Source: Blakeslea trispora
Taxonomy: Eukaryota > Mucoromycota > Mucoromycetes > Mucorales > Choanephoraceae
Direction: 5' to 3'
Assembly (NCBI GenBank): GCA_025331445.1
Contig: JAIWNE010000104.1
Location: forward strand, 1-64,000
Length of the DNA stretch: 64,000 bases
Positions 19,986 to 48,768 of the stretch are shown here, in pieces. The notes under the pieces are model-generated. The model had not been told where the DNA came from, made no database searches, and saw nothing but the letters and a program-made list of their open reading frames with translations. The translations under genes and the position numbers were made by a program. Numbering within the stretch: position 1 is the first letter of the stretch; every line of letters starts with the position of its first letter.

Positions 19986-21060
19986 CTACAAACTATTTCT
20001 CATTCAGAAGTGCATTTCTCATCGCCAGCCACCTTTTTTTAAGGTCGACAATAGAATGAAAACATCGTATTCTCTGTAAATCTTTCTTTTCTCTATTTGT
20101 ACATAGCTAATCACCATCAAAGACCACAAAACCTCTTACCTGAAGATTTTCAGATTACAAAAAACCAAAACCATAGTTGCGACTTGCCATGCAAGCACTA
20201 GATAAATTGAGCCTTGCTACCTGTAAGAAAAAAAATGAAGTAATCCTAAGTAAAGAACCATTTTTTTTATTAGAGGTGTTTGTAAAAAGTTTCACCCCAA
20301 AAAATGGTGCTTGTAACATTCGGTACAATTTAACCAAGCAAAAATTGATCTGGTTTAAACAAGCTTGAAAGCTGAAAATTAAAACCGTCATTGTTGAATT
20401 CAAGGCTGATATAAATAGTCATATCAATATCCAAATTAAATAATCATTATCCTTTTCTATAATTCTCTTCTCTCTTCTTAAATTTTTTTCTCTAAGATCG
20501 GTCTTCTAATATCTAGCAAATAGAATCCCTTTTAAAATATTGTGACTACTTCACAAGGAACGGTTGCATTTAAATAATATGCATATGGTTGAGAAGCTCT
20601 TTTGATACTCTTTCATCTTTACTATAAGATAATTTTCTTAACCTGTTTTTTAAAGAAAATATTTTTGACATCAAAAATTTACCTCTGCAACTTCTGCCCT
20701 TCTGAGTCGGATTTAAGATAATATCCTCAGGAAGAACCTCGATCAACACAAGGTCGTGAAGCTTGAGCTCCTTGACATTACTAATTATACTGGTCAGATA
20801 ACGATTAATATATATTATAAACTTTGTGAACCTTCCAAAGACAACGTTTGGGTCGTCGTCTTCGTCAATTGAAGCCAGAATATATTCCTGCCGCCAAGGA
20901 AGTAATTGCCAAAAACAGTAACCAAAGACGAATGACTACAGTTAGAAGTTTTGCAATAGCACTCAAAAAAATAAAAACAGTGTGGTTAGCTATGAAGGAC
21001 CTACGCACTTTGTAATTGTCGCGAGTTGACTCAATTACGAATCGGAATCTTAATAAGTCC
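19986..21060. other. Gap, nothing recognised
   Basis: Mixed AT-rich sequence without motif. Open frames at 20155-20403 and 20177-20368 overlap on opposite strands and look like chance. Confidence 0.3.
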
Positions 21061-21069
21061 ACTTCTTTA

Positions 21070-21113
21070 CCGCAGTGAACAACCGCAGTGAACAACCGCA
21101 GTAGAACCGCAGT
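21070..21113. repeat. 13-bp tandem repeat (CCGCAGTGAACAA)
   Basis: Three and a half units, the third shortened, directly upstream of a TATAAATAG (about 21135) and AATAAAAAA. Could be upstream elements of an LTR-like promoter. Confidence 0.55.
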
Positions 21114-21439
21114 TTACAGTCAATTCTAAACGGTATAAATAGACAATTTATTATTATCAATAAAAAATTATCTTTATCTTTGTGAAAAATACAAGTCTTA
21201 GTTGTGGATTTATTTCTAGTTAAATATTGCCATTTTACTTCCACTATCAAATCTTCCTGCCAATCAGAAGGCTCCTAATCAACTACCGACTTCATCTTAC
21301 TTTATAATTAAATTACATAAAGGGTGAGCCAAGGAACATTCTTCACTACAGCCCTGCAAACATTGAACGCAGATACAGGTATTCAAGTGAATGATTGAAG
21401 ATTCATAATGACGAGATGCAGCCAATTCAATTAAAGTGT

Positions 21440-21830
21440 TTGTTGAAAAAATATATTATCACTTAGATCATCATGCAGCACAGACTTGGGCACTGGAGAA
21501 AGGCATAATGAATGGGAGGGGTTGAAAACAAATGATAATTATGTTTTCTACTTATGTGGTTTTAAATCACAAAGGAAGCTCGGTGCAAACATGGTTAAAA
21601 ACAGCATCCAGGTGTGGCTAGCGAAGAATGGTAAACAGCTCAATTAGAATTACCTTGGCAACTTCACATCAGAAATATTCCAAGATATGTTCAAAAGGCT
21701 TGGTCAATCCTTGGCTCCTTATGGTAGTTCCGTCATACACATGAATGGTGCATTTTACCGTAAGCGTTTAAAAATTCCTTCCTGAAAACTGGGTTTAAAA
21801 AAAGGAAACCGAGGAATGGCCAATTAAGAG
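21440..21830 (+). pseudogene. Short protein-like relic, unknown
   Basis: One frame with few stops reads MVKNSIQVWLAKNGKQLN, then YLGNFTSEIFQDMFKRLG and SLAPYGSSVIHMNGAF. It looks like real but eroded protein. It follows an LTR-like stretch, so a retroelement origin is possible, but I do not recognise the family. Confidence 0.25.
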
Positions 21831-23500
21831 AGGCCCATTGCAAGAGCAACATACACCCAAAAAACAAACATTAAAAGAGCTCTATAATATGGTGAAGTAA
21901 CTCGATATAAAGCCTGTATATACAACGTACGGGACTGCAGCCAAATACAATCACAAATTCCTGATCACGCGCCCCTACCGCTGTGAGTTTCGACTAATAA
22001 AAGAGGAGAGGTCATTGGTAAGAACCCAAATTGCTGTTGACCTTAACCTCAATGTAACATTGAAAAATCAGAAAACAAAACTCAGGAGTAACCTGAGAAA
22101 CATCGACAAAGAATCGTGAATATTGTTTTGGAACGATACAATAGACATTGCCAGACAGTATTTAAGGAAATTTGATAATGGTTGTGCATTTTAAAATGAG
22201 TTAAAAATAATGATGTTCAGAAAAATTATTTTCTTCAGAGTTTCAAATGGCCACAGTTTAATCAGAGTCGATGAAATTTACTCAAGATTCCCTCAACTTA
22301 TAATAACCAGAAATAAGCAAAACCTATCCTATGAATCTCAACATTTTTTTCATAAAATGGTACTACTTTTGCAAGAATTTGTTGTATAAGCTAGAGTATA
22401 TGAAAAACAGAGCAGAATGAAACTTTCGACATTCAATTTTAACTAAATGATTTCATGATCTGCTGATTTTGTTCCTTTTCTAATAGTAACCAAGATATTC
22501 AATCAAAAAGAGGACATCAAAAATCGCATTAAATTGTAATTTTGTTTAAAGTGATAATCGCAAAAGGTTTTGACATCAATCAAATCTGCAATCGCAATGT
22601 CTGTGCCGCGAAGTATGTAAGATAAAACTTACCAAAAATGACTACTTAGTTACACCAAATATTCTCCGAAATTTCATCGAATAGTGTTTTCGTCGAAAAT
22701 TTAATTATCTTTGATCAAAAATTATTCTTAAAAATATCAAACATTTTATTTAATCAATAATAAAACAGTGAAATAAAACCAAATATTTAAACAATTTATT
22801 TATTCCGCCGATTACATTCCCGCCAATTAGTACACATTAAAAATAAATTTATTATAATTATATAAATTTGTTCATAAAATTAAATATAAACAACCAATCC
22901 TAATTGCAGATTATATTTTTTTGTGACACCATTTATTTATTTATAAAAATTTTGTAATTATAGTTTTTATTTTTGTTAATTTAATAAATTTATCTATTAA
23001 ATAAATAACTAACGTTAATAATTTGCCCCAATTTACACAATAAAATTTTATTTTACTATTTTATTAAATTTAATTATATTGGCTGCTTATATATTTATCA
23101 GCTATTTTATTATCTTTTTTTTAATTTTTGATTTTTTATTGATCAGCTTAGTTTATTATATAATAATATTTATTTGATTGCTAAAATGGGTGACACAAAC
23201 GTTTCAAAGGGGATGCAAAAATATAACTATTTATTTAAAAAATCCAAATTCTTACCGACCGAACTCCTTACTAAGGTGTTAAGGAATTTTCCCAATCAAA
23301 AAAAGAGTATCAAAAGATTATGACCTAGCTTTAGAAACTATCTTGGAGAAACTTTGATAAAACTCTCCTTCTATCTAGAATAAAAATAGTTGATCAAGTT
23401 GATGTGAACTTTGTTCATTTGTTTGTTTTTGTCTTGGCATATCATATTAATTGTTGGTTTGGATCTGATTTTCTTGAGCACAAACAGACTAATCTATTCG
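21831..23500. other. Very AT-rich gap
   Basis: 22600-23200 is almost pure A/T with long runs. No gene, no repeat unit recognised. Confidence 0.35.
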
Positions 23501-43313: not shown

Positions 43314-43328
43314 TCTTCGGTAGTATAG
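43314..43328 (+). repeat. LINE-A target duplication, distal copy (tRNA-Asp nt 1-15)
   Basis: TCTTCGGTAGTATAG, identical to 48697-48711, the first 15 bases of the tRNA-Asp gene. It lies at the 3' end of the minus-strand LINE. Confidence 0.88.
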
Positions 43329-43525
43329 GCAAAAGATTTTATTAAATAATGACTTGTAAGACTGATCCCTATGGGGCAAGTGTCTAATCATAAGGGCAAG
43401 CCAAAATAAGGATTATTCTAACTGGATCAAAAGGAACAAAAAAATAAACTAGCAGAATAGAAAAAAAGGAAAAAGAAACCAAGAGAGACAATATAAAATA
43501 AGAAAGAGAGAAAGCAAAAAGGGAA

Positions 43526-46500
43526 TCAGACTACACTAAGGTAGTTGTAGAGAGTAGAAGTAACAGGAGGAGCAACTTGCTTGTAAAAGACAGGAAGCAA
43601 CCAATCCAAAAGAGTAAGACCACGGATATCCTGAGAACAGGGACTGAACTCGGCATCAGGGAGACAGATCATGTCCATGTCCAGCATAATTGAGCAGATG
43701 GTAGGCCACCAAGTTGACCAACGCAAAAGAGAGACAGAATGACGCTGGTCATTGGGTGAAGGAGCGGAAAAAAGTCGAGGGAGTTGGTTCAACACAAAAT
43801 CCAAAGGATTGGGCTGAGCATCAACAGCAACACCAAGACGAGAGGCAACAGAGAGACAAGAAAGCAAATGGTTCCGCGAGCATGTGGATGACCACAACGA
43901 CAGGGAACAGGACGAGCAGGTAACCAACCCATCTTCCAGCGAAGAAGACGACTACGCTCCCAAACGGACATTGGCAGCACAGGATGGGATCAACACCCAG
44001 ACAGGACGACAAGCACGCAAGAGAACCAGACCATCAGGTTTGGCCAAAAGGCCAGCCAGGTAGGCACGACGATAACGCCTAATGACAGGCTTGGGATCAC
44101 CACCAGAGGTAGCAATCCACTGCTGCAAGGAAGAGAAGCTAGGCACAGAGGGAGAGACAAAAGAGTGGCAGACCAGTTTCCACAGAGAGTTGTTCTTTAG
44201 CAGCTTAGGCCAGCGGAAACGAGGGGCAACAGAGGTAGAGGCAATGTGGGCAAGCAAACAGCGAGCAAAGTATCAGCAGGAAGCTGTTGCATCCGCACCA
44301 ACATTTTGAACCCGAGGATCGAGACACGCTCCTTCATACAAGGCAAGTGGATCAGTGTTTGAACACCACTGTTGAAGCCTTAGAGTGGCCACCAAAGGCA
44401 AGACGAAGACACTGATCTTGAGCACGCTCAATAACCCGGAGGTCACGAACCAAGAGAAAGAGACAGCAAGACCATACTCTAGCTTTGGCCGGATGAAGGT
44501 GGCATACAGCCGAGCAGAGGTCAAACGAGAGAAGCCAGTCGAGTGAACACCCAAAGGTTGAAGACCAGAGCGCATGGCCACCAAGGCAGAACGAGCGTTG
44601 CGTTGGACAAGGAGAGTAGCATCCAGTTGAGCTTTGCTGTTGAAGGGCAAGCCCAAATAGTCAAAAGACTCGGCAACAGGGAGAGCAGTACCATACAGGC
44701 GTAAGGGAGTAGTACGACCAGTATACAGCGGGGGTTACCACCACACACTTGGCCGGGTTCCACCGATACCCAAGAGACAGAGAGTGTTCTTCAGCTTTCT
44801 TCAACAAGCGGGGCATGGTCTCAGCAGTGCCGATCAAGACAACATCGTCAGCATAGAGTAGTGAGTTGATCCAGAGGCCATCATACAGACGTTGAGGCAT
44901 GGATCCAAACACACGAGAGCGAGGCATTGAGATGGACCGCAGGACGGCAGGGAACGAGTTAATGTACACAGAGTACAAGTAGGGAGACAAGATCGAACCT
45001 TGCAAGACACCAGTACCAGGCCAGAAAGAAGGAGAACGAGCACCAGAGACCAGTACCTCAACTTGCACATTGTCAAAAAGACAACGCAGCAGGCCAAGAA
45101 GAGGATCAGAGACATAAGTCTCAAGAGCACGCCAGACAATGTTACGATCAACACTATCGTATGCTTGCTTAATATCCAAGAAACAAAGGACAGGAGGTTC
45201 ACCAAAGTGATCATCAGCGTGCTGACGACACAACTCATGCAAAGACAGAGCCTGGTCAAGAGTACTACGATGAGCGCGAAAGCCACCTTGAACGATATCC
45301 AGAGGAGGACCAGATTCCAAGAGCTCAGGATACACGCACAACTCCAGCAACTTACGCATGACCGAAGTCAAGCTAATGGGCCGGTAGTTGGCTGCACTCA
45401 GAGGATCACCCTTCTTGTAAATGGGCACGACCTGGGCAGTACACCAATCGCGAGGGATTCGAGACCAGAACCAGCAAAGAGAAAAGAGCAAGACCAAGAG
45501 AGGAGACAAGTCATCGACAATGGGCAATAGCATCTCGGTTCTCAGATGATCAACACCCGGAGCTTTACGACGAGAGAGCTTCTTCAAGAGAGTGTCAGAC
45601 ACCAACTCGACCATAAAGGGACAGTCCTTATCAGCAGCAGTAGTAGCACCAACAGGAAGGGAGAAAGACAAGTCAAGACCAAACTGGTTCTGAAGATACC
45701 TAGCAGTATCAACCGAGACACAAGGACCAGAAGGCAAAGGGGGAGCAGTAGGCCGGAGAGCAGGCAGGTGATCACCAGCAAAGACAGACCGAAGATGACT
45801 TGACATCACCGTAGCAGCAACAGCAGGACCTTCAGGATGCGAGAACCCAGGAGAGGTAGTACGACCACGCCGTAACCTCTTGATGGTGGCAGTAGTGTCA
45901 GAGAAAGGACCAGAAGAGAGCTTGTCACAGAACTGCTTCCATGTTTCACGCCTACGACGCTTGAGCTCAGCATTGAACCGGTCACAAGAAGAGAGATACG
46001 CACGCCACAGAACAGCCTTACCAACGCCGTCAGAAGCTCGTCGCCAAGCTCTTCGGGCGTCCTCACGAGCATCCACAAGAGACTGCAGAGAGCAAGTCCA
46101 GAACCAGGTGTTACCAGGAGGTCGTGGCTGTTTGCGACCAACAGACTCATCGAGGCAACGGTGGATGGTATCAGTGAGGCTACTAGCAATAGAATCAACA
46201 TCAGGGATAACCCTTTCAGTTGGGAGAGTTGCGTGAGTAGAGGTACGACTGCTATGTTGCCCGAAGGCTTGACAAATAGAATACTTAACTTCTGCCAAGA
46301 GTGTATTTTTGATAGGTGCGCTATGCAACCTGAAAAGAGACTGATACAGCTCTACACTCTTGTGATCATCCAGACAAGACAGTTTCCATAAAAGACGCGG
46401 ATGAGCAACTGGAGCAGGAGGCAGAGAAGACAGAGAACAAGACAGAGAGACAGGAACATGGTCAGAACCAAGGCCGGCATCACGGACAACAAGAGAAGGA

Positions 46501-47122
46501 GCAACCAGATCATCAAAGCTGATAAAGAGATCAATTACGCTACTCCAACTCGAGTGACCAGGCTGAGAGTTAGCCATGCGACTTTGAGAGAACAGAGTTG
46601 GAACACCTTTTGCCAAGAGAGAGTTCCAACAGAAAAGACCAGCTTCCTCAACCCATTCGGCCAGACGAGTACCACGAGTGTTACTTCGAGAGTCACCAAG
46701 AAGAGGAACACTACGCGCATTCAAATCGCCACAGATGAATGCGTTGGTCTGAGAGGCATGAGTACGAGAAGGGAGAGACATAATGAGAGACATAAACTCA
46801 TCATCGGACAGAGAAGGAGGGGCATAGACACAATGAATGAGAAAGGTAGAGACTTGACAAGAAAAGACATAAGGAGAGGAAGAAAGGAGAGGAGTAACTG
46901 GGTAAGGACAAGTAGGATTACCAAAAGAGAGATACCCATCTTGCCACGGAAAGAGTCAGCAACAGGTTGACCATAGGTATGATACTGTTGCCAAGAGGTA
47001 GGGAAACGAAGAGGAGAGAGTAGCCAAGTCTCGGTGATGAAGATGAGGGAAGAGTCATATAAGTAGTCAGTAACAGTACTAATGGCTTGACGAGCAATAC
47101 CGTTAGCATTCCATATAGTCAT
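43526..47122 (-). pseudogene. LINE-A ORF2: endonuclease and reverse transcriptase
   Basis: Begins MTIWNANGIARQAIS (47122), the N-terminal Asn box of an AP-like endonuclease. ITETWL (catalytic Glu) follows, then ICGDLNARS and, further on, GLGSDHVPVSL (the SDH motif). A one-base frameshift at about 46930 splits this domain. The 46793-44661 frame holds the reverse transcriptase: VPIYKKGDPLSAANYRPISL, GGFRAHRSTLDQAL, FLDIKQAYDSVDR (first Asp), GVLQGSILSPYLYSVYIN and LLYADDVVLIG (Asp pair, about 44845). More shifts at about 44690, 44270 and 43950 separate the C-terminal part, which ends with RWKMGWLPARPVPCRCGHPH and NHLLSC, a CCHC-like zinc site, and a tail to 43526. The protein nicks target DNA and copies its RNA in place. 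As read here it is inactive unless the shifts are sequencing errors. Confidence 0.85.
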
Positions 47123-47189
47123 AGTAAAGTCATAGGTAGAAGGAAAGGAGGGGGCATAGGTTCATAAGAAGGCATAGGATTGGTACTCA

Positions 47190-48326
47190 TTAAGAGGATG
47201 AGACCGGTTCACCATCACCGGCCAAGGCAATTTCCATATCAGTAGAGGGAGCAGAGTCAACACCAACTACAGAAGAGAGAGGACCAACTACAGTACCAGC
47301 CTGTTCCTTTGACAACCAACCTTGACGGACAAAGTCGTAGGCCACCAGTCTACGCGTTTGTTCACGAACATAGCCAAGAGCACGAAGAAGACGAGCTTGT
47401 TGCAGTTCACGAGCCTTGGCAGTGAGAGCATCGGCATCCAGAGAGGCAAAAGCAGGATCAAAGACATTGGATCCAGAGAAAGGATCAAAGTCTGTCAAGA
47501 CCGGGAGAGAATACTTGTCCATGACCTTGAGAAGATCAGCTTTGTAAGCAGTGTGAATGAGCAAAGCTACAACGTTACGAGCTGGGTAGTGCACATCAAG
47601 GACACGGCTGTTATCCAACCCGATAAGTCGCAGCTTATGACGGAAAGCAGAGAGACGGTCCCGATACTTGTTTGGCAAGTAAACATACTCAAAGAGAGGT
47701 GAGTCTACTGAAGAGCCAGCCGGAGAAGAAACAAGAAAGATACGAGCAGCGGCCTTACGTTGGCGAGGCGTGATCTTTTTCTTGGGCTTGGCCTGAACAG
47801 CCAAAGAGGAAACCGACTTGTTGGACTTACCATAGGCCTCAGCAGGTGTAGGAGCAGCAGCAGCAACATGAGCCCATTTAGACACGGCGGCCGAAGGAGA
47901 GACAGAAGGAGCAGGCAAGGAAGAAGGAAGCAAGTCATCATCCATTGCTACATCAACAGACGGGGACAAAGAGAGAGAAGGACCAGACTTGTTCTCAAGT
48001 TCCAAGATCTTGGCACGAGTAGCGGCAAGCTCTTTCTTGAGTGCCGAGTTCTCAGCAACAAGAGACTCCAACTGAGAGAGACGCTCTTCATACTTTTCAA
48101 ACTTGGCCTGAAAAGCAGCAAACCAAGCAGGAGGAGCAGAGGAAGAGGGAGAGGCCGACGAGAGCAAAGAAACATTACTTACCTCTGGCAAAGAATCAGC
48201 ACCGGAGAGGGAAGGAGCAACAGAGAGACCAAAGTCAAAGACAACGTCTTTGTTCAGCTCAAGAGGAGCAGATGTCGAAGAGATGCTGACGTCATCAACT
48301 CGAGATCTTGGTAAGGTACGCGTCAT
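47190..48326 (-). CDS. LINE-A ORF1: coiled-coil RNA-binding protein
   Basis: 378 codons from ATG 48326 to TAA 47190 (the frame is open upstream too, into the tRNA gene, but without a plausible start). The N-terminal 75 residues are Ser-rich. A coiled coil follows (AKFEKYEERLSQLESLVAEN and KKELAATRAKILELEN), then basic KKKITPRQRKAAARIF. The conserved C-terminal domain has FEYVYLPNKYRDRLSAFRHK, LRLIGLDNSRVLDVHYPARN and VVALLIHTAYKADLL, and ends with the helical QARLLRALGYVREQ. LINE ORF1 proteins trimerise through such coils and bind element RNA. Only 67 bases separate it from ORF2. The C-terminal domain looks typical of fungal LINEs that I associate with Mucoromycota; that is from recall, not a search. 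Confidence 0.75.
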   Translation of the reverse strand: MTRTLPRSRVDDVSISSTSAPLELNKDVVFDFGLSVAPSLSGADSLPEVSNVSLLSSASPSSSAPPAWFAAFQAKFEKYEERLSQLESLVAENSALKKELAATRAKILELENKSGPSLSLSPSVDVAMDDDLLPSSLPAPSVSPSAAVSKWAHVAAAAPTPAEAYGKSNKSVSSLAVQAKPKKKITPRQRKAAARIFLVSSPAGSSVDSPLFEYVYLPNKYRDRLSAFRHKLRLIGLDNSRVLDVHYPARNVVALLIHTAYKADLLKVMDKYSLPVLTDFDPFSGSNVFDPAFASLDADALTAKARELQQARLLRALGYVREQTRRLVAYDFVRQGWLSKEQAGTVVGPLSSVVGVDSAPSTDMEIALAGDGEPVSSS

Positions 48327-48696
48327 GTCGGCAGGGATCAAGGGTGACGAAAGTGAACTATGCAAGCGCTTACCGGAGAGACTTGAAACTTTAATAGGTG
48401 ATGTTTCTAATACAGAGATAGATTCTGATAAAGTTTCAGCTGGTTCTGATGCTAGGTTCTTTGTAGATGAGGCTTCAAAGTCGAGATCTTTAGTTGAAGA
48501 TGTCGAAATGTCGTGAATCGCGTTGGTGAATGTGCTAGAGTTGTCGGATTGGGACACTTTGGGTACCAAAATGTGCGGACGAGATTGGGGAATAATAATT
48601 GATAAAGAAATACGCTGGTTAATAAGGAGAAAGTCGAGCTTTTTACAAAAACAAAATGTGAATTTAAAAATAATGATTAAAAGGAGAAAAAAAGGC

Positions 48697-48768
48697 TCTT
48701 CGGTAGTATAGTGGTGAGTATCCCCGCCTGTCACGCGGGAGACCGGGGTTCAATTCCCCGCCGGAGAG
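48697..48768 (+). tRNA. tRNA-Asp (GTC)
   Basis: 72 nt without intron. The acceptor stem TCTTCGG pairs fully with CCGGAGA (one G-U), the discriminator is G, and the anticodon arm is CCCGC-CTGTCAC-GCGGG with GTC at 48730-48732. A box TAGTATAGTGGTGA, B box GGTTCAATTCC, and a TTTT terminator at 48771. The gene is intact because LINE-A duplicated its first 15 bases on inserting, but its natural upstream sequence is now 5.4 kb away and replaced by the LINE 5' tip (GAGAAAAAAAGGC). Confidence 0.97.

Follow-up and report, generated by a model that had tools for sequence, protein, structure and literature searches.

The window analyzed here is a stretch of 64,000 nucleotides (nt) of Blakeslea trispora DNA (contig JAIWNE010000104.1, positions 1 to 64,000) in which a long interspersed nuclear element (LINE) abuts an intact tRNA-Asp(GTC) gene. 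The gene lies on the plus strand at 48697 to 48768 and matches 12 further tRNA-Asp genes in this genome at 72/72 positions. Its first 15 nt, TCTTCGGTAGTATAG, are present twice in the window: at 48697 to 48711 (plus strand), where they form nt 1 to 15 of the gene, and at 43314 to 43328 (plus strand), where they stand as an orphan copy at the far (3′) end of the LINE. The region between the two repeats is a full-length, decayed minus-strand LINE of 5368 bp (43329 to 48696) whose 5′ end touches nt 1 of the tRNA gene, leaving LINE and tRNA head to head. We refer to this LINE and its copies as family 1. A preliminary description of the locus had read the repeats as a target-site duplication that rebuilt a complete tRNA beside a LINE of about 5.4 kb, transcribed away from the tRNA and encoding an AP-type (apurinic/apyrimidinic) endonuclease; each of these points was recovered in our analysis. 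The orphan is then the outer copy of the duplication, with a true length of 14 or 15 bp, and the start of the rebuilt tRNA is the inner copy.

The LINE encodes two open reading frames (ORFs), ORF1 and ORF2, the latter with an AP-type endonuclease and a reverse transcriptase (RT). ORF1 (47190 to 48695, minus strand) continues upstream as an open frame, antisense into the tRNA, to 48734; it matched no Pfam family and gave only a weak, sub-threshold coiled-coil match. The main part of ORF2 (43526 to 46793, minus strand) is split into several frames. One of them, from 44661 to 46793, contains the C-terminal portion of the endonuclease and, at 44733 to 45416, the RT; C-terminal pieces of ORF2 lie at 44273 to 44656, 43952 to 44257, and 43526 to 43927. 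Comparison with open copies identified a further piece (46721 to 47122, minus strand) as the N terminus of ORF2 and the start of the AP-type endonuclease; searched alone, it gave no Pfam match. ORF2 is a single open frame of 1230 codons in six other fetched copies, and the broken frames of the window LINE therefore mark it as a decayed copy. An open copy matched PF14529 (E = 1.6e-11) and PF00078 (E = 1e-20), both in one ORF, and contained WNANG, ETW, GDLN, and SDH, which we take to be endonuclease motifs, and YADD, presumably that of the RT. The 3′ terminus of the window LINE (43329 to 43343, minus strand), AATAAAATCTTTTGC, is not poly-A. Nearly all copies that retain a 3′ end terminate in AATAAA(A/C)TCTTTTGC, and across family 1 this end is exact (..TCTTTTGC(C)), with neither a poly-A nor a simple-repeat tail. 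Such tails are common, not universal, among AP-endonuclease LINEs and are not required in site-specific ones. Family 1 shows the hallmarks of a LINE, namely a target-site duplication, a constant 3′ end, and variable 5′ truncation.

To place this locus in its genomic context, 15-mers were counted over the 37.2-Mb genome, with the reversed pattern as a control. Scores were obtained for 63 of 1905 candidates in the RNA-family search and for 63 of 193 in the ORF2 search; numbers of tRNA genes and LINEs given here are those found rather than totals. The Asp 15-mer occurred 18 times, in 13 intact tRNA-Asp genes, one partial match (C236), and four family-1 3′ junctions (C7, C19, C60, and C270), and its reversal did not occur. 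The corresponding Val 15-mer occurred 21 times, in eight tRNA-Val(AAC) genes, at 12 junctions (10 from family 1 and two from a diverged relative at C97), and at one unexplained place; the reversed control again gave 0. A census based on the LINE 3′ end returned 23 matches, of which the short, diverged C97 match was set aside, leaving 22 copies including that of the window. In 18 of these 22, the site is a tRNA-Val, -Asp, or -Gln gene; one has a tRNA-like junction, one lies upstream of tRNA-His, and two lie elsewhere. Junctions matched tRNA-Asp in four cases, tRNA-Val exactly in 10, and tRNA-Gln in one (C277); the tRNA-like junction (C73) received no tRNA score from either ARAGORN or Rfam. For five copies at contig ends (C188, C104, C282, C193, and C62), the 3′ side alone was seen. 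Two further exact 15-mer matches to the LINE 3′ end (C11 and C255) had no target-like flank and were discarded as chance, and 41 one-mismatch matches were left out. The targeted insertion proposed in the preliminary description thus agrees with the census. In favour of a LINE without target preference that simply landed on one tRNA are only the 2/22 copies that have no tRNA at the junction; the 15-mer counts against zero controls and the 18/22 copies on tRNA genes nevertheless rule out chance placement, to which we assign a negligible probability.

Occupancy differed between the two main target genes. All eight tRNA-Val(AAC) genes found, which are identical to each other at 74/74 positions, bear a family-1 element at nt 1. 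The 5′ junction was seen directly for each, including C256 and C26, where ORF2 matches were also present at the expected distance. When eight LINE-flanked genes were re-read, six had the full LINE 5′ end at nt 1 (C19, C27, C69, C25, C112, and C149), one a slightly shortened LINE (C190), and one a strongly 5′-truncated LINE (C60). Among tRNA-Asp genes, 3/13 were occupied, with both sides seen (C7, C19, and C60). A fourth, at C260 (L089, C260:155436-157600), has at nt 1 a 56-bp piece of the LINE 5′ end, beyond which the DNA is unrelated, and the remaining nine had no family-1 end within 70 bp read by eye. The unrelated DNA at C260 opens with the inverted repeat GATGAGACGG, and the 56-bp piece is either a non-autonomous derivative or a relic. 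The tRNA-Val(AAC) is presumably essential, from which we infer that its LINE-flanked genes are functional. The "safe harbour" insertion envisaged in the preliminary description fits the unchanged tRNA sequences.

Targeting of tRNA genes is common to several LINE families, not to one alone. The ORF2 search identified further families at ~40 to 58% identity, and the predicted 3′ regions of 20 of their elements were fetched. Sister families with 40 to 44% ORF2 identity insert at this point of the tRNA too, in genes for Thr, Phe, Cys, Tyr, Lys, Met, Ile, and Gly. Families 2 and 3 terminate in ..ATCTTTTAC or ..ATCTTTAAC, one copy being a T shorter. At 15/15 located junctions (14/14 at first, with C266 later), the 3′ end is adjoined by the reverse complement of a tRNA start ending in GCTCAG, and 14 of the 15 equal a tRNA start identified in the genome, either exactly or but for nt 15. 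The targets were Thr(TGT), Thr(AGT) (two), Cys, Tyr, Lys (three), Phe (three), Met, and Ile (two). A tRNA gene was found beside the 5′ end in 9/13 fetched regions. Six duplications were identical at 15/15 positions and two, both Lys, at 14/15; C266 is flanked by tRNA-Ile and, on its opposite side, by the identical 15 bases, and at C279 (Tyr) the tRNA at the 5′ end mismatches the 3′ side. Four predicted 5′ regions (L058 to L061) contained no tRNA; for three of these, two on C280 and one on C240, a tRNA that starts with the same 15 bases lies farther upstream. Family 4 sits on tRNA-Gly at C29; its C36 copy has the same 15 bases at the 3′ end and no tRNA in the fetched 5′ piece (L066), and no junction was obtained from the region fetched for its C110 copy (L042). 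The region fetched for L041 (C261) was short of the 3′ end. L044 and L047 represent family 5, which at C2 showed no convincing duplication or tRNA in the fetched pieces. In this family (L047, L065, and L074; C144:7654-12300 and 20700-22300), the shared 3′ part of one copy lies upstream of an intact 5S rRNA gene, with 36 bp in between; a second copy is followed by a 5S gene with an altered 5′ part. The 5S rRNA genes are possibly another target linked to RNA polymerase III (Pol III), that of family 5.

The junctions define the insertion site closely. In matching duplications, the bases in common with the tRNA end at A14 or R15 (R, purine) and the 5′ junction is usually at nt 1, and a duplication of 14 to 15 bp leaves the whole tRNA intact. 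The preliminary description had placed the insertion exactly at nt 1; this holds for the usual 5′ junction, but the fixed point is nt 14/15, inside the A box, where reverse transcription would start. Three genes have A at nt 15 (Gln at C277; Lys at C271 and C124), and at each of them the copy at the junction carries G, pointing to a primer that most likely ends at A14, a LINE that ends in CC, and a true duplication of 14 bp. The D-stem letters before A14 are TRTA in family 1, GCTCA in families 2 and 3, and GTTAA in family 4. It thus seems that the A box is what the families read, each taking one tRNA class, and that the tRNAs are shared out among families according to A-box type (TRTA or GCTCA). 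In the mechanism that we propose, the ORF2 endonuclease would nick the sense strand just 3′ of the conserved A14 (..TRTA/R in family 1, ..GCTCA/R in families 2 and 3, and ..GTTAA/G in family 4), and the freed 3′ end would prime reverse transcription beginning at the exact RNA 3′ end. The second strand would be cut at nt 1, and fill-in would restore the tRNA gene, with the LINE becoming its new upstream flank and reading away from it. A gene rebuilt in this way could be hit again, which would produce tandem stacks with the newest element beside the tRNA.

Stacks were found at C190 and C112, in the order tRNA, LINE, 15-mer, LINE, 15-mer. At C112, ORF2 is open in the proximal LINE and broken in the distal one, as expected if the rebuilt tRNA was re-targeted and older copies were shifted outward. 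Over ~1500 bp, 99.9% identity is seen between some copies at different tRNAs, which must therefore have inserted recently. The window copy is older; its last ~1500 bp are 95.9 to 97.6% identical to the three nearest copies, the nearest at 97.6%. LINE-tRNA pairs could also have multiplied if a few ancestral insertions were copied as units by segmental duplication, and some outer flanks are indeed held in common (C69 and C188, 99.6%; C104 and C213, 90%; C27 with both of the latter, 78 to 80%). C69 and C188 may represent a single event. The outer flanks of family-1 copies mostly differ, however, and the others show no match to each other, 5′ truncations vary between copies, one family uses several tRNA isotypes at the same position, and the duplicated bases match each local tRNA. 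These isotype-matched duplications largely rule out joint duplication, which we consider very improbable as an account of the family.

We place at roughly 90% the probability that the window LINE is one copy of a site-specific family in a lineage inserting into the tRNA A box. The best reading of this lineage is that it comprises Mucorales LINEs with tRNA-A-box-specific endonucleases, self-healing insertion, and stacked re-insertion. Several observations weigh against this interpretation. The G at nt 15 could also be explained by copied read-through RNA. Some junctions match imperfectly: the 15-mer of L037 (families 2 and 3) matches no gene and differs from the tRNA-Tyr on the other side, and that of C282 differs from Val by one base and has no second occurrence. 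Others match on one side only. Two of the 22 family-1 copies have tRNA-Val on the 5′ side alone, C27 with merely CTACA in common on the other side and C149 with its 3′ end lost, and C270 has the Asp duplication on the 3′ side and no tRNA on the 5′ side. C278 and the diverged C239 (88% identical) have no tRNA at the junction, and C24, the unexplained Val 15-mer, has neither a LINE end nor a tRNA in the 301 bp fetched. The 24 bases shared at C29 comprise nt 1 to 15 and 9 bases upstream, indicating that the second cut sometimes falls elsewhere than at nt 1. Finally, C213 lies just upstream of tRNA-His rather than inside it, with the LINE 14 bp from the gene and a 12-bp duplication that begins 2 bp upstream of nt 1. 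The nick site of this copy, TGTAG/TTG, is off target yet matches the core motif.

The C213 nick, 2 bp outside its gene, and the family-5 copy ending 36 bp from a 5S rRNA gene would both be accommodated if the elements were tethered to Pol III factors or chromatin and cut where sequence preference allows. There is precedent in Dictyostelium, where ORF1 of TRE5 binds TFIIIB, and tethering and sequence reading are able to act together; this explanation is compatible with A-box insertion. The position is, however, base-exact at nt 14/15 and the families keep to A-box sequence classes, whereas known tethered elements are spread over a range (40 to 54 bp upstream of tRNA genes for TRE5, according to the part of PMC5911963 available). 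On balance, we regard tethering as unlikely, and insertion directed by the A box as the preferred explanation.

Relatives of the element point to Mucorales. The named organisms among the 34 best ORF2 relatives were Choanephora, Gilbertella, Mucor, Rhizopus, Phycomyces, Circinella, and Lichtheimia, all Mucorales; much weaker matches (P0035 to P0054) include animals, an oomycete, and a plant. In an ORF2 tree made by a quick method, with several open forks, distant outgroups on long branches, and no R1, Tx1, or L1 clade references, the 34 relatives and six rows of this genome formed a 40-row group with a support of 100 (Shimodaira-Hasegawa-like approximate likelihood ratio test, SH-aLRT). A public ORF1 relative (P0055; source, ena) is 71% identical to the window ORF1; against Choanephora proteins, its identity is 89 to 90% in the main aligned blocks and 74% in a second one. 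It starts with MTGGDTHHYTTEEPFF, in which 13 residues of antisense tRNA-Asp translation precede the LINE start, as in the window. Among the eight N termini read from 22 listed proteins (P0055, P0056, P0058, P0060, P0062, P0065, P0066, and P0067), P0055 alone has this feature. The protein suggests indirectly that the same tRNA-Asp junction exists outside this genome, although it may belong to another LINE of the same species. Viral contigs gave no match to the peptide patterns searched.

Site-specific insertion by an AP-endonuclease LINE is familiar from R1, which enters insect 28S ribosomal DNA (rDNA) at an exact site with a 14-bp duplication. R1 uses one rDNA site, whereas the LINEs described here use many tRNA isotypes with a common A box. 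The preliminary description had compared the element with the tRNA-linked LINEs of Dictyostelium. The comparison holds in that TRE5 and TRE3 are AP-type LINEs at tRNA genes that spare the gene; it fails in position, since these elements insert at a distance (for TRE3, 40 to 150 bp downstream, in the part of PMC5911963 available) and the junctions here, which fall at nt 1 and nt 14/15, lie within it. The closest known position is that of NLTR-A of Dictyostelium purpureum, which inserts 2 to 6 bp upstream of tRNA nt 1 and has an RNase H domain downstream of the RT; the section of PMC5006619 available describes no nick inside the tRNA. A Pfam scan of ORF2 at E values up to 0.1 found no RNase H family, unlike NLTR-A. 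Zebrafish has sequence-specific LINEs of multicopy small-RNA genes, compared here by description alone: Dewa in a tRNA-Leu spacer, Mutsu in 5S, and Keno in U2 genes (PMC3706591, in part). Dewa uses a spacer, whereas family 1 and its sisters insert inside genes of several isotypes. Dada elements insert at fixed sites inside tRNA genes (same part of PMC3706591), and their TAGCTC duplication recalls the A-box class of family 2, but Dada is a DNA transposon with a DDE transposase and not a retrotransposon.

Within fungi, Ty3-type elements of Rhizopus, also of the Mucorales, often co-localize with tRNA genes; these are long terminal repeat (LTR) elements, and the available part of PMC2699053 states no position inside the gene. 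Grem-LINE1 of Mucor has a zf-RVT domain and a pericentric location (PMC7377519, in part); the Pfam scan gave no zf-RVT match in the LINE described here, and Grem-LINE1 was compared by description only. The part of PMC6875170 available has nothing on LINE insertion at tRNA genes. The preliminary description knew of no fungal case, and no fungal LINE with tRNA targets was found in the literature searched, which covered few subscription papers and others in part.

In the sources covered, known tRNA-seeking LINEs insert outside the gene, whereas the lineage described here appears to cut inside the internal promoter and to leave the gene whole. With the A-box class differing between families and the position common to them, the question arises of how a LINE endonuclease of the AP type acquires a strict new DNA specificity. 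A second question is how every gene found for a probably essential tRNA can come to be occupied by a LINE. Endonucleases that are compact and naturally specific for tRNA genes could also serve for harmless multicopy gene insertion. A more ambitious view, which we offer tentatively and at less than even odds, is of a Mucorales-wide lineage whose endonucleases would each read one A-box class at the invariant A14 and so divide the tRNA set. At least the Val(AAC) genes would then be saturated, every one rebuilt and its upstream flank replaced, and expression of an essential tRNA from LINE 5′ DNA would amount to an obligate transposon-tRNA partnership.

Other repeats were observed near the same genes. 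Pieces of up to ~540 bp downstream of Asp, Val, Gln, and His tRNA genes (L011, L014, L019, L021, L022, and L027) are mostly 90 to 96% alike, which suggests a second repeat settling downstream of tRNA genes. The flanks of L079, L082, L083, L021, and L035 to L040, near tRNA genes or LINE ends, also share repeats, several with a TGTAGTG-like end; these are perhaps solo LTRs, comparable to those near Rhizopus tRNA genes.

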